A stretch of 61,135 nucleotides of DNA. Source: Desulfobacteraceae bacterium (GTDB lineage: Bacteria > Desulfobacterota > Desulfobacteria > Desulfobacterales > JAABRJ01). Made by a program: the position numbers and the translations under genes. Below, one piece after another: positions 1,908-54,458 of this stretch (positions are counted from its first letter, which is position 1; each line of letters opens with the position of its first letter). The notes under the pieces are model-generated. The model was not told where the DNA came from and did not search any database. It was given only the letters and a program-made list of their open reading frames with translations. The stretch spans positions 1-61,135 of the forward strand of contig JAJDNY010000089.1 in NCBI GenBank assembly GCA_022340425.1, given 5' to 3'.

Positions 1908-2258
1908 TCAGCCGCCGAAGCGGCGCATATCCTCGACGAAAAACGGGGTGCAGCGCATGCCGACACTCATTTTTTTGACCCAGATACGGGCCATGGTGAC
2001 GGTCTGCCCGTCCATATCCACTAGGCTGGGGAGTTCCTCGACGTAGGCGATATCATCCGTCATGAACTCGTAGTAGAAGGTGTTGGTGCTGTATGGGTCC
2101 GGCACCAGAATGATCTTTTGGGAATCGTAGGGGTGCTTGCGCGGTGCACCCGAAAACGCGACATGGGTATCGCGAATCGCCTTGGGATCACGGGGTTTTT
2201 TGTAAGCCTGAATTTCAAATTTGTTGGTTTTTCCGGTTTCCACTGGAAAACGCGACAT
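1908..2258 (-). CDS. conserved 116-residue cytoplasmic protein, function unknown
   Basis: The ATG at 2258 follows a strong ribosome site (AAGGGGGGA, about 7 bases away) and begins MSRFPVETGKTNKFEIQ. The protein is highly polar, without signal peptide or membrane segment, and has conserved-looking segments HVAFSGAPRKHP, YYEFMTDDIAYVEELPS and RIWVKKMSVGMRCTPF. I recognise this as a short family of Desulfobacterota. Some entries I recall carry the name Ppa (inorganic pyrophosphatase), but the family I pyrophosphatase signature D-x-D-P-x-D is absent, so I do not assign that activity. It follows the selenoprotein gene at 2330-2512 by 71 bases and probably shares its transcript. Confidence 0.7.
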   Translation of the reverse strand: MSRFPVETGKTNKFEIQAYKKPRDPKAIRDTHVAFSGAPRKHPYDSQKIILVPDPYSTNTFYYEFMTDDIAYVEELPSLVDMDGQTVTMARIWVKKMSVGMRCTPFFVEDMRRFGG

Positions 2259-2329: not shown

Positions 2330-2512
2330 TCACAGCCGGTCGCAGGGAATTTCGGCCAGAAAGCCCTCCAGGGCCTCATCGAATCTATCCACCAGCGCTT
2401 CCAGCGGGTAACGGATGCTGCAGGACCTGCAGACAAAAAATATCTTCCGTCAGGCGCGCTCAAAGCGCATGGGGCGGCCGCACTTCAGACAGGCAACGGG
2501 TTTGCGTTCCAT
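2330..2512 (-). CDS. small selenoprotein with two CXXC motifs (in-frame TGA = Sec21)
   Basis: From the ATG at 2512 the frame reads MERKPVACLKCGRPMRFERA, then TGA (2450-2452), then RKIFFVCRSCSIRYPLEALV and on to a second TGA at 2330-2332, 60 residues in all. Both sides of the internal TGA look like one protein: Cys8-x2-Cys11 precedes it and Cys28-x2-Cys31 follows, with an acidic helical tail. This matches my memory of a family named 'dual CXXC motif small (seleno)protein' in Desulfobacterota. A SECIS-like hairpin lies 22 bases downstream of the TGA, and selA is in the same window (53031-54458). The role is unknown; thiol/selenol redox or metal binding is an inference. Conventional gene calling would miss or truncate it. 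Confidence 0.8.
2416..2435 (-). promoter_or_regulatory. bacterial SECIS-like hairpin for selenocysteine insertion
   Basis: On the coding strand CTGCAGGTCCTGCAG forms a 5-bp stem (CTGCA/TGCAG) closed by the loop GGUCC. A bulged U and two further pairs (UG/CA) lie below it. The E. coli fdhF element has the apical loop GGUC on a GCA/UGC stem with a bulged U below, so the resemblance is close. The loop starts 22 bases after the TGA, within the usual range for bacterial SECIS elements. The hairpin is inside the coding sequence, as expected for bacteria. Confidence 0.75.
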
Positions 2513-2763: not shown

Positions 2764-3960
2764 ATGACCCAGCCCCACGACGGCATCCAATGCCCGGGAT
2801 TCACAGCGGCCGGCCTGGCCGCCGGCCTCAAAAAAAACGACAAGAAAGACCTCGGCCTGATTTTTTCCGAGGTCCCGGCCAGCGTCGCCGGGATGTTCAC
2901 CACCAATCGTGTCAAGGCCGCTCCGGTGCGCCTGGACATGGAGCGGGTTGCCGGCGGCAAGGCCCAGGCCGTCATCGTCAACAGCGGCAACGCCAATTGC
3001 TGCGTCGGCGAAAAAGGACTTTCGGCCGCGATTGCCATGTGCCGGGCCGCGGCCGCAGGTCTGGGCATCGCCGAAAACCTGGTTCTGGCGGCCTCCACCG
3101 GGGTGATCGGCGAACCGTTGCCGGTTGAAAAGATCGTGGCTGCCGCCCCGCGGCTGGTGCAGGCCCTCTCCGCCGAGGGGTTCGCCGATCTGGCCGAGGC
3201 CATCATGACCACCGACAACGTTCCCAAAACCGTTTCGCGCCGGGCCGCCATCAACGGCAAAACCGTCACCGTGGTCGGGGTTGCCAAGGGGGCGGGGATG
3301 ATCCGACCGGACATGGCCACCATGCTCTGCTTTGTCTGCACGGATGCCGACGGCCAACCGGCGGTGCTGCGGAGATGTCTGTCAAGGGCCTGCGAAAGAA
3401 GCTTCAACCGCATCACGGTGGACGGCGACACCAGCACCAACGACACCCTGCTGCTCCTGGCCAACGGCCTTTCCGGCGCTTCGCTGACCGAAGCCGACGC
3501 CCAGGCCACATTTCAGGAAATGCTGGACGATATCCTGACGGCGCTGGCCCAGATGCTGGTGCGCGACGCCGAAGGCGCCACCAAGCTGGTGGAGATCGTC
3601 GTGAAAGGCGCCGCCAGCGACGCCGAAGCCCGCCGGGTGGCCGATACGGTGGCCAATTCGAGCCTGGTGAAAACCGCCCTTTTCGGTGAGGATGCCAACT
3701 GGGGGCGCATCCTGGCCGCCGCCGGCCGGTCCGGGGCGGAGCTGGCACCCGAGCGGATCGACGTTTTTTTCGACGCGGTCCGCATTTGCCAAAACGGTCA
3801 GGGCTGCGGCAAGGCCGTTGAAGCCGAGGCCACCCGTGTTCTCAAAACAGCGGAATTCACCATTACCCTGGATCTCAAGCTGGGCTCGGGACGGGCTGCG
3901 GTTTGGACCTGCGATTTTTCCCTTGATTACGTCAAGATAAATGCCGATTACCGTTCCTGA
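2764..3960 (+). CDS. argJ: bifunctional glutamate N-acetyltransferase / ornithine acetyltransferase ArgJ
   Basis: ArgJ moves the acetyl group from N-acetylornithine to glutamate in the cyclic arginine pathway, and some members also use acetyl-CoA. The 398-residue product has the family's usual length and the self-cleavage motif KGAGMIRPDMATML. Its Thr186 would be the new N-terminal nucleophile of the beta chain after autoproteolysis. Other family segments are IVNSGNANCC, AASTGVIGEPLP and GEDANWGRI. The ATG at 2764 starts MTQPHDGIQCPGF, the normal N-terminus. Whether it is mono- or bifunctional cannot be told from sequence. No other arginine gene is nearby. Confidence 0.95.
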   Translation: MTQPHDGIQCPGFTAAGLAAGLKKNDKKDLGLIFSEVPASVAGMFTTNRVKAAPVRLDMERVAGGKAQAVIVNSGNANCCVGEKGLSAAIAMCRAAAAGLGIAENLVLAASTGVIGEPLPVEKIVAAAPRLVQALSAEGFADLAEAIMTTDNVPKTVSRRAAINGKTVTVVGVAKGAGMIRPDMATMLCFVCTDADGQPAVLRRCLSRACERSFNRITVDGDTSTNDTLLLLANGLSGASLTEADAQATFQEMLDDILTALAQMLVRDAEGATKLVEIVVKGAASDAEARRVADTVANSSLVKTALFGEDANWGRILAAAGRSGAELAPERIDVFFDAVRICQNGQGCGKAVEAEATRVLKTAEFTITLDLKLGSGRAAVWTCDFSLDYVKINADYRS

Positions 3961-51675: not shown

Positions 51676-53034
51676 TCAGGACGCCCTGGCGGTCAGGCGG
51701 CGCTGCAGGCTGTCGATCTCCTCGCGGGCGTCGTAGCCGCGCGCGAGCGCAGCCTCGAAAGCCTCCAGGGCCGCTTCTAGCTGGTCCTGCTTGAGCAGCA
51801 GCCGGCCCAGGCGATAGCGGTAGAGGCCGCTCTCCGGCTCCAGCGCCACGCTCTGTCGACAGAAGAGGGTGGCAATCTCCGGATTTTCCCCCTGAAGATC
51901 GAACAGGTGCCCGATGGCCGAGAGCGAGGCGGCGTCGGCGGGGTTCTGCTTGACAGCCCGTTTGTAGGCGGCAACGGCCTCCCGGGGGCACTCCAGGACT
52001 TCGTAGCACTGCCCAAGCAACGCCTGGACGGGGCCGGCCGCGGGTTGAAGCCCGGCCGCCTTTTCCAGAAAAGCGAGGGCCTTGGTGGGCTCGCCGGTGA
52101 GCAGGTGGAGCTTGCCAGTCTGGAAAGCCACTTCGAAAAGCTCCGGCGCGATCCGGCCGGCTTCCCGGAAACAGGTCAGGGCCGCGTCGTTGCGGCCCTG
52201 GAGCATGTGCACCAGGCCGCTGTTGTAGTGCGCCAGGGGTTCTTGGGGGTCCAGAAAGACGGCGGCCTCGAAGGCCGCCAGGGCCTCGTCCAGCCGCCCC
52301 AGAAGCCCGTAGCAGACCCCCAGGCTGTTGTGCACGTTGACCTCGGCGGGGTTCAGTAGCAGCGCCCGCTGGAACTCTTCCACGGCCCCGGCAAAATCGC
52401 CTTCCTGATAAAACCGGTCGCCGCTGATGTTCAAACTGACCGCGTCGAACACCACCCGGCTGCCGGGCCCGAAAAAAGCGGCGTGGTCGACCGCCTTGCG
52501 GGCGTTGGCGAGCATCTGGCGTCTGTGGTAGTTGATGCAGGGGAACATGGCGATCCCGATGGAGACGCTCTCCGATCGCTGGGCGCAAAAGGTTTGCTGA
52601 ATGCGGCGGGCGGCTTCGCGGCATTGGGGCGCGTTTCGGCCGGGCAGAAAACAACCGATGGCATCCACCCCGATCTCGGCCCACAGACCGTCTTCATCCC
52701 GACAAAGGCCGTCCACGACCGCCGCGAGAGCCTTGCGGACGGTTTCCAGCTGCTCCTCGGCCTGCCCGTCGTCGACCACCTCCATGGGGTCGATGCGGAC
52801 GGCGAGCGTCCCGAAGCCGCCCGCACTTGTCAGCTGCGGCATGGCGCGCGCCAGAAAGGCCGCTTCGGCCGCTTCATCGACGGTGAAAGGCGGCGCCTTG
52901 GCCGCGGCGGCGCCCAGCGCCGGTTCGGCTGCCCGCACCGCCGCCGGCGGCCCGGCCGGGGACTGGTTGCGGGAGAAGAGAAATTCGCGGTCTGAGCCGC
53001 AGCGGGTCTCAATCTGGGGGTCGTGTGGGGTCAT
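51676..53034 (-). CDS. degenerate GGDEF-like / tetratricopeptide repeat protein
   Basis: Residues ~75-197 resemble a GGDEF-like domain in which the signature is EIGVDAIGCF in place of GGDEF; other GGDEF landmarks such as SVSIGIAMF and ANARKAVDHA are present. Cyclic-di-GMP synthesis is therefore ruled out. Residues ~205-440 are about seven TPR units (for example AVEEFQRALLLNPAEVNVHN, AHYNSGLVHMLQGRNDAAL). It starts with an ATG that overlaps the TGA of selA (ATGA), so it is coupled to SelA. It may be a scaffold protein; a role in selenium metabolism is only suggested by position. Confidence 0.8.
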   Translation of the reverse strand: MTPHDPQIETRCGSDREFLFSRNQSPAGPPAAVRAAEPALGAAAAKAPPFTVDEAAEAAFLARAMPQLTSAGGFGTLAVRIDPMEVVDDGQAEEQLETVRKALAAVVDGLCRDEDGLWAEIGVDAIGCFLPGRNAPQCREAARRIQQTFCAQRSESVSIGIAMFPCINYHRRQMLANARKAVDHAAFFGPGSRVVFDAVSLNISGDRFYQEGDFAGAVEEFQRALLLNPAEVNVHNSLGVCYGLLGRLDEALAAFEAAVFLDPQEPLAHYNSGLVHMLQGRNDAALTCFREAGRIAPELFEVAFQTGKLHLLTGEPTKALAFLEKAAGLQPAAGPVQALLGQCYEVLECPREAVAAYKRAVKQNPADAASLSAIGHLFDLQGENPEIATLFCRQSVALEPESGLYRYRLGRLLLKQDQLEAALEAFEAALARGYDAREEIDSLQRRLTARAS

Positions 53035-54458
53035 CTCGGGGCCCTTTTCAGTATGTTCGCGAAGGCGTCGACGATAATGACGGTCTCGCCCTCCTGCAAC
53101 GTCCGGGTGTCCAGGATCACCAGATCGTCTTCGATCCTTGCAACCACCGGCGGCGTTCCGGCCCGCAGGGCCGCCTCCAGGCGGCTGGCGGAAAGCCCCC
53201 GGAGGCGGACCGCCACGCATAGGCTGCGCAGGTCCAGCAGGGGCAGGGCCCCTCCGCCGGCCTTGGAAACCAGTTCGCGCAGCAGGACCTCCAGACGCCC
53301 GTCGCCCAGAGCCGCCAGCGCATCGCGCAGCCCACGGGCGCGGCCCTCGGTGACCGCAAAGGGCATCGTCACCATCTGCAGGGTGGGGATAGCCGCCACG
53401 GCGCGGCGCGGGTCGCGGTAAAGCCGCAGGGTGCTCTCCAGGGCCGCCAGGGTCATCTTGTCGATGCGCAACGCCCGGGTGATGGGGTTCGTGCGGATGC
53501 GCGCGATGATCGCCCGTCTGCCCACAATCAGCCCCGCCTGGGGACCGCCGAGAAGCTTGTCACCGCTGAAGGTGACCACATCAGCGCCGGCGGCCACGGA
53601 CTCCTGGACGGTGGGCTCCTTGGCCAGCCCGTACTGGGAAAAGTCGATGAAGGTCCCGCTGCCCAGGTCCTCCATCACCGGCAGCCCGTGCCGGGCGCCC
53701 AGGGCCGCCAGCTCAGGCAGCGACACCTCGGCGGAAAACCCGACGATGCTGTAATTGCTCTTGTGGACCTTGAGCAGCAGCGCGGTCTGCTCGTCGATTG
53801 CGCCGGCGTAATCCCGCAAATGGGTGCGGTTGGTGGTCCCCACCTCGCAGAGAATGCCGCCGCTTCTGGCCATGACGTCCGGGATGCGGAATGCGCCGCC
53901 GATCTCCACCAGTTCCCCGCGCGAGACGATCACCTTGCGGCCCCGGGCCAAGGTCTCCAGGCACAGCAGAACAGCCCCGGCGTTGTTGTTGACCACCATG
54001 GCCGCCTCGGCCCCGCTGATCTCGCAGAGGACGTCCTCCACGGCTGTATAGCGGGAGCCGCGCCGGCCGGCCACCAAATCGAATTCCAGATTGGAGTAAC
54101 AGCTGGCGATTTCCACCAGGTTGGCCAAAACCGCCGGGGCCAGCAACGAACGCCCGAGGTTGGTGTGGACGACGATGCCAGTGGCATTGACCACCCGTTT
54201 GAGGTTGTGGGCCATCGCCTGGGCAACCCGCTCCAAAACCTCTGCGACGATCGTCTCCAGGGTCGGGCCGACCGCGGGCGCCTGCCGGCCGCCGGCCAGG
54301 ATCCGCTCGCGCCACACCGCCAGGGTCGACCGGGCGCAGCCCGCCAGAACGGCTTTGGGCACATCGGCGACTTCGGCCATCGGCTCCAGCGATGCGAGAA
54401 TGCGATCCACACCGGGCAGCGCGCGCAGCAGTGAGCGTTGGCCTTCATCGGGTGACAT
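53031..54458 (-). CDS. selA: L-seryl-tRNA(Sec) selenium transferase
   Basis: SelA converts Ser-tRNA(Sec) to Sec-tRNA(Sec) with selenophosphate and PLP. The 475-residue protein has the N-terminal RALPGVDRILAS, NATGIVVHTNLGRSLLA, VNNNAGAVLLCL, RGELVEIGGAFRIPDVM, HKSNYSIVGF, and the PLP-binding Lys301 in TFSGDKLLGGPQAG. GAGGA precedes the ATG. selB, selD and the Sec tRNA are not in the window. Its presence supports selenocysteine decoding of the TGA at 2450-2452. Confidence 0.96.
   Translation of the reverse strand: MSPDEGQRSLLRALPGVDRILASLEPMAEVADVPKAVLAGCARSTLAVWRERILAGGRQAPAVGPTLETIVAEVLERVAQAMAHNLKRVVNATGIVVHTNLGRSLLAPAVLANLVEIASCYSNLEFDLVAGRRGSRYTAVEDVLCEISGAEAAMVVNNNAGAVLLCLETLARGRKVIVSRGELVEIGGAFRIPDVMARSGGILCEVGTTNRTHLRDYAGAIDEQTALLLKVHKSNYSIVGFSAEVSLPELAALGARHGLPVMEDLGSGTFIDFSQYGLAKEPTVQESVAAGADVVTFSGDKLLGGPQAGLIVGRRAIIARIRTNPITRALRIDKMTLAALESTLRLYRDPRRAVAAIPTLQMVTMPFAVTEGRARGLRDALAALGDGRLEVLLRELVSKAGGGALPLLDLRSLCVAVRLRGLSASRLEAALRAGTPPVVARIEDDLVILDTRTLQEGETVIIVDAFANILKRAPR

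Follow-up and report, generated by a model that had tools for sequence, protein, structure and literature searches.

The closest described relatives of the gene analysed here are two protein families, both listed under the NCBIfam model NF041197 in PMC13188914, where the model appears twice: once for OS_HP3 (motif RxU) and once for the "hypothetical protein DW" (motif GxU). That paper credits OS_HP3 to its reference 60 (Zhang and Gladyshev 2007) and DW to its reference 65. OS_HP3, which PMC9312934 also lists, is a protein of the Olavius algarvensis symbiont; DW was reported as a new family in PMC12013277, and OS_HP3 was the one known selenoprotein of the test genome in that study that its deep-learning tool missed. 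In the portions drawn on here, PMC13188914, PMC12013277 and PMC9312934 give no function for either family.

The window (the whole stretch of 61,135 nucleotides that was analysed) is assigned to the Desulfobacterales because of the relatives of its SelA, the nearest named of which are ~60-67% identical. The segment 2330-2512 on the minus strand is very probably an authentic gene for a selenoprotein, belonging to the NF041197/OS_HP3 family and carried by a Desulfobacterales-type genome, this confidence covering the selenoprotein nature and family identity only; it adds one more member to a family that is known but functionally uncharacterised. The likeness to OS_HP3 consists of a full-length profile match, both CXXC motifs, a selenocysteine (Sec) within an RxU motif and the same spacing (9 residues separate Sec from the first CXXC and 6 from the second); there is no difference in kind, and in the window copy the second CXXC is followed by Ser-Ile where others have Gly. 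DW shares the dual CXXC, the central Sec and the spacing, although by motif it corresponds to a different subfamily. Added here are a synonymous-codon test of the SECIS hairpin, its two registers, a count of Sec/Cys switches, the two-subfamily structure and a predicted placement of Sec at the tip of a zinc ribbon.

Gene and product

The coding sequence (2330..2512, minus strand; start ATG 2512-2510, stop TGA 2332-2330) encodes 60 amino acids when the in-frame TGA is translated as Sec, giving MERKPVACLKCGRPMRFERAURKIFFVCRSCSIRYPLEALVDRFDEALEGFLAEIPCDRL. Codon 21 is the in-frame TGA (2450..2452, minus strand), and the translation places the first CXXC (Cys8-Cys11; 2480..2491, minus strand) before it and the second (Cys28-Cys31; 2420..2431, minus strand), whose codons form the apex of the SECIS hairpin, after it, as the original prediction of a frame open across this TGA had it. 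The product matches NF041197 (CxxC_Se_CxxC) at 64.7 bits (cut-off 40; profile positions 1-53 of 53; NCBIfam, Sec read as Cys), in line with the "dual CXXC motif small (seleno)protein" family to which the original prediction had linked it. It is at most 49% identical to any relative found. A plain ORF search listed no ORF in this frame, just as had been anticipated for standard gene calling; the epithet "unannotatable" is apt for such a caller, but is too strong, since a curated NCBIfam model covers exactly this family.

Homologues and Sec/Cys exchange

Matches were found in 112 of 395 sampled genomes of the phylum, with 88 exceeding the cut-off, and most matches have exactly one in-frame TGA; a gene missed by ordinary ORF calling thus belongs to a widespread family, present in ~28% of these genomes. 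The homologues were supplied by a search of the genome collection, the alignment being too diverse for a pattern scan; one protein scan of genome contigs found no relatives, and tblastn returned no phage or plasmid copies of the gene. After removal of duplicates, 127 homologues were located by a pattern that demanded Sec or Cys at the Sec position, which is occupied by TGA in 98 and by TGC/TGT in 29, and a wider profile search without this requirement found Sec or Cys in every full-length match. Alignment at position 21, which had been proposed as a check, shows Sec or Cys there with conservation beyond it. In an alignment of 63 sequences (all matched by NF041197), Cys8, Cys11, Sec/Cys21, Cys28 and Cys31 show no variation, and past the TGA conservation extends to a C-terminal DR[LI]. 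The first CXXC and Sec are separated by 9 residues, and Sec and the second CXXC by 6, in nearly all homologues.

The tree splits at 100/100 support into two subfamilies, A (87 members, R-x-U-R), in which the window gene is placed, and B (40 members, G-x-U-A, with a different tail), and judged by their motifs these correspond to OS_HP3 and DW, respectively. Both are present together in 26 genomes. Sec and Cys have switched at least 5 times on the tree, against 26 for shuffled labels; the strongly supported branches alone require at least 2 switches. Owing to the shortness of the alignment, individual branches are weak. The Sec flanks in most of subfamily A read R-[T/S/R]-U-R, and those of the window protein R-A-U-R. 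Further, a cysteine in the tail occurs in 40/61 Sec members of A and 34/37 of B; it is not universal, and may serve as the resolving thiol for a selenenyl bond in many, not all, members. In one clade of Cys forms (L014-L025, L030, L032 and L046) the C-terminus is different (IIYD), and a pyrE-like gene on the same strand lies directly upstream.

Predicted fold and possible role

The AlphaFold model, of modest confidence (pLDDT 76, ~84 in residues 11-40; pTM 0.54), has strands at 16-20, 23-27 and 34-36 and helices at 37-43 and 46-53. It predicts a zinc-ribbon-like fold, with the two CXXC knuckles on a beta-hairpin and Sec21 in the turn between the strands 16-20 and 23-27, and a small zinc ribbon is the most likely form of the product on this model. 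Pfam gave zinc ribbons below threshold only (Zn_ribbon_6, 15.7 bits against a cut-off of 25), while Foldseek found no PDB fold match below an E-value of 0.1 (best 0.18). The weak Foldseek and profile matches are zinc ribbons: RPB9 along with further polymerase ribbons, eIF2-beta, LysW, YfgJ and HypA. The ribbons of RPB9/TFIIS, eIF2-beta, LysW, YfgJ and HypA likewise have a beta-hairpin linking two CXXC knuckles, but lack a Sec at the hairpin tip, and the similarity is too weak for family membership.

Metal binding combined with a redox role is tentatively favoured for the product. The four CXXC cysteines would hold a structural metal (zinc) in a small ribbon, after which comes a helical tail that is short and acidic. 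Sec21, lying between basic residues, would be exposed at the beta-hairpin tip and act as a reactive selenol on a partner, either by thiol/selenol exchange or by reduction of a peroxide or electrophile. The predicted position of Sec at the ribbon tip, the frequent occurrence of two subfamilies per genome and the natural Cys homologues make the role directly testable.

With five invariant chalcogen residues within 24 positions, and the zinc sites of HypA and YfgJ type among the weak sequence matches, Sec might instead be a metal ligand, or a metal or oxidant sensor, in a Cys4-Sec site whose oxidation or metal loss opens the ribbon, so that no catalytic selenol would be involved. This is unlikely, as four cysteines alone complete a zinc site and the predicted strands set Sec21 at the hairpin turn, which in zinc ribbons is the end away from the CXXC knuckles. 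Less probable still is a zinc-ribbon adaptor that binds RNA polymerase, the ribosome or RNA in the manner of RPB9/TFIIS or eIF2-beta, with the Sec tip in a cavity of its partner. Such an adaptor would accord with the best Foldseek matches (RPB9-type and eIF2-beta zinc ribbons, all weak) and with the basic Sec flanks of subfamily A; nevertheless, zinc ribbons are generic, the E-values are 0.18 or worse, and the gene is absent from most genomes of the phylum, unlike a core subunit of transcription or translation.

A more specific form of the redox reading can be put forward as a speculation that we ourselves regard as improbable: a catalytic Sec at the ribbon tip would reach into a cavity of the partner protein, and the two paralogous forms (RxU and GxU) would serve two partners per cell. 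An analogy is offered by TFIIS, whose ribbon extends its acidic tip into RNA polymerase; we know of no precedent for a selenoprotein with a catalytic Sec at the hairpin tip of a zinc ribbon.

Gene neighbourhood

The divergent upstream neighbour is argJ (2764..3960, plus strand; NF003802, 518 bits), an arrangement common to four other families of the order. Downstream, on the same strand as the selenoprotein gene and beginning ~70 nt after its stop, lies an ORF of ~116 amino acids (1908..2258, minus strand; MSRFPVETGKTNKFEIQ...) for which no Pfam or NCBIfam match was obtained; in seven other genomes of the order a truA-like gene, not seen here, is found downstream. Other contexts include fabD/gcvH-like/moaA, pyrE ahead of the Cys-form genes in one clade and, for subfamily B, a region with TPR, NrfD-like and ferredoxin genes, the neighbours having been named from their sequences except for the profile-tested argJ. 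Clustering of neighbours across the homologues revealed no conserved neighbour that would indicate a partner or reaction, the contexts being lineage-specific.

A LysW/ArgW-like carrier role was considered, prompted by the neighbouring argJ and by one member's weak match to LysW. It was rejected because the tail DRL is unlike that of LysW, which ends in a terminal Glu, and because the association with argJ does not extend beyond the order.

The closeness of the ORF 1908-2258 on the same strand also admits a reading in which the short Sec frame is a regulatory leader, whose selenium-dependent read-through controls that ORF. It is very improbable, since lineages differ in what lies downstream (a truA-like gene in the seven genomes of the order, different genes in other genomes), and since it is the protein that is conserved, even where Cys replaces Sec.

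Selenium machinery of the genome

The presence of selA in the window, claimed in the original prediction, agrees with a TIGR00474 match of 595 bits (cut-off 267.9) to an L-seryl-tRNA(Sec) selenium transferase gene at 53031..54458 on the minus strand. The search of the genome for selB, selD and selC, suggested as a check, yielded the first two: selB lies elsewhere in the genome (367.5 bits), adjoining tRNA-His and not selC, and selD (L042 1501-2487, minus strand) is itself a selenoprotein gene, with an in-frame TGA in ETVAGAGUASKL. The selC part of the check came back empty, as no tRNA-Sec was found in this draft assembly (209 contigs, 97.7% complete) by covariance model, ARAGORN on the best matches, pattern or BLAST, and the RF01852 matches are other tRNAs, the best being a tRNA-Ser.

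Among eight checked genomes of the order, tRNA-Sec is present in seven (76-77 bits), and the eighth, the only same-genus genome and a draft 84% complete, yielded none. In two relatives the neighbour of selC is an M20-type peptidase gene, of which this genome holds no close counterpart that could mark the selC site. Because the assembly is in 209 contigs, a gap is the likeliest cause of the missing selC; a divergent selC in this genus is a possible alternative. The selenoprotein reading draws support from the NF041197 match, the Sec/Cys homologues, the conservation up to the C-terminal DR[LI] and the joint presence of selA, selB and a TGA-containing selD. That the TGA is a real stop, leaving a peptide of 20 residues or a reading frame in decay, is suggested by the missing tRNA-Sec and the absence of the frame from plain ORF calls, but can be practically dismissed, as homologues are conserved beyond the TGA to the C-terminus, those with a Cys codon read straight through, and this genome's selD also depends on such recoding.

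Predicted SECIS hairpin

In the selenoprotein reading, SelB would bring Sec-tRNA to the UGA at 2450-2452 under the direction of a SECIS hairpin, the apex of which would be formed by the second CXXC's codons. The predicted bacterial element (2409..2452, minus strand) comprises a UGA-containing lower stem, a bulged U, an upper stem of CUGCAG/CUGCAG (2418-2432) and a GUC/GGUCC loop; the palindromic hairpin at 2418-2432 reads CTGCAGGACCTGCAG on the plus strand and CUGCAGGUCCUGCAG in the mRNA. Folding thus reproduces the bulged U and GGUCC loop that had been described, while the distance of 22 bases given for the start of the hairpin fits the loop, which lies 22-23 nt past the UGA, and not the CUGCAG stem, which starts 17 nt past it. 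The SECIS of E. coli fdhF has a UGCAGGUC-type apex and a bulged U, and its UGA is situated just beneath the hairpin. The window element shares these three features, but its loop is a few nucleotides further from the UGA, its upper stem differs in length and its apex is partly dictated by the CXXC codons. Rfam gave no gathering-level match in the window, and a permissive search nothing relevant at the locus.

The element folds at -14.8 kcal/mol (z -2.7), with 4/200 shuffles as good. Nevertheless, the hairpin alone is weak evidence, because the window contains 98 TGA sites with SECIS-like hairpins at least as stable as -7.5 kcal/mol. At just three of them does the sequence look coding both before and after the TGA: the selenoprotein gene and two places where one ordinary gene directly follows another in a shared frame. 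It is because of the homologues that the observation exceeds chance. Since the CXXC codons (TGC-NNN-NNN-TGC) alone favour a small GC stem, a synonymous-codon control was used, in which the protein was kept and synonymous codons were shuffled with local usage. Against this null the window hairpin (-7.6 kcal/mol, loop 23 nt after the UGA) is moderately significant (p 0.03). The mean hairpin of TGA members is -9.3 kcal/mol in A and -8.8 kcal/mol in B, versus null means of -4.1 and -3.7, respectively, whereas A-type Cys members average -3.6 kcal/mol versus a null of -2.6; B-type Cys members (n=3) are too few to judge. The z-scores of Sec and Cys members differ with p 8e-6, a statistic that ignores kinship.

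The loop occurs in two registers, one 21-24 nt after the UGA, within the codons of the second CXXC (including the window gene), and one 16-18 nt after it, at the first Cys codon of that motif. Both are found in both subfamilies with constant spacing of the protein motifs, and the family thus shows a SECIS element changing register beneath a fixed protein motif. Because the loop shifts while the motif stays in place, the RNA element itself appears to be selected, which argues that the hairpin is not merely a by-product of the CXXC codons. The lineages with the SECIS ~6 nt nearer the UGA and unchanged protein spacing include L056, L053, L104-L109 and their relatives, from both subfamilies.
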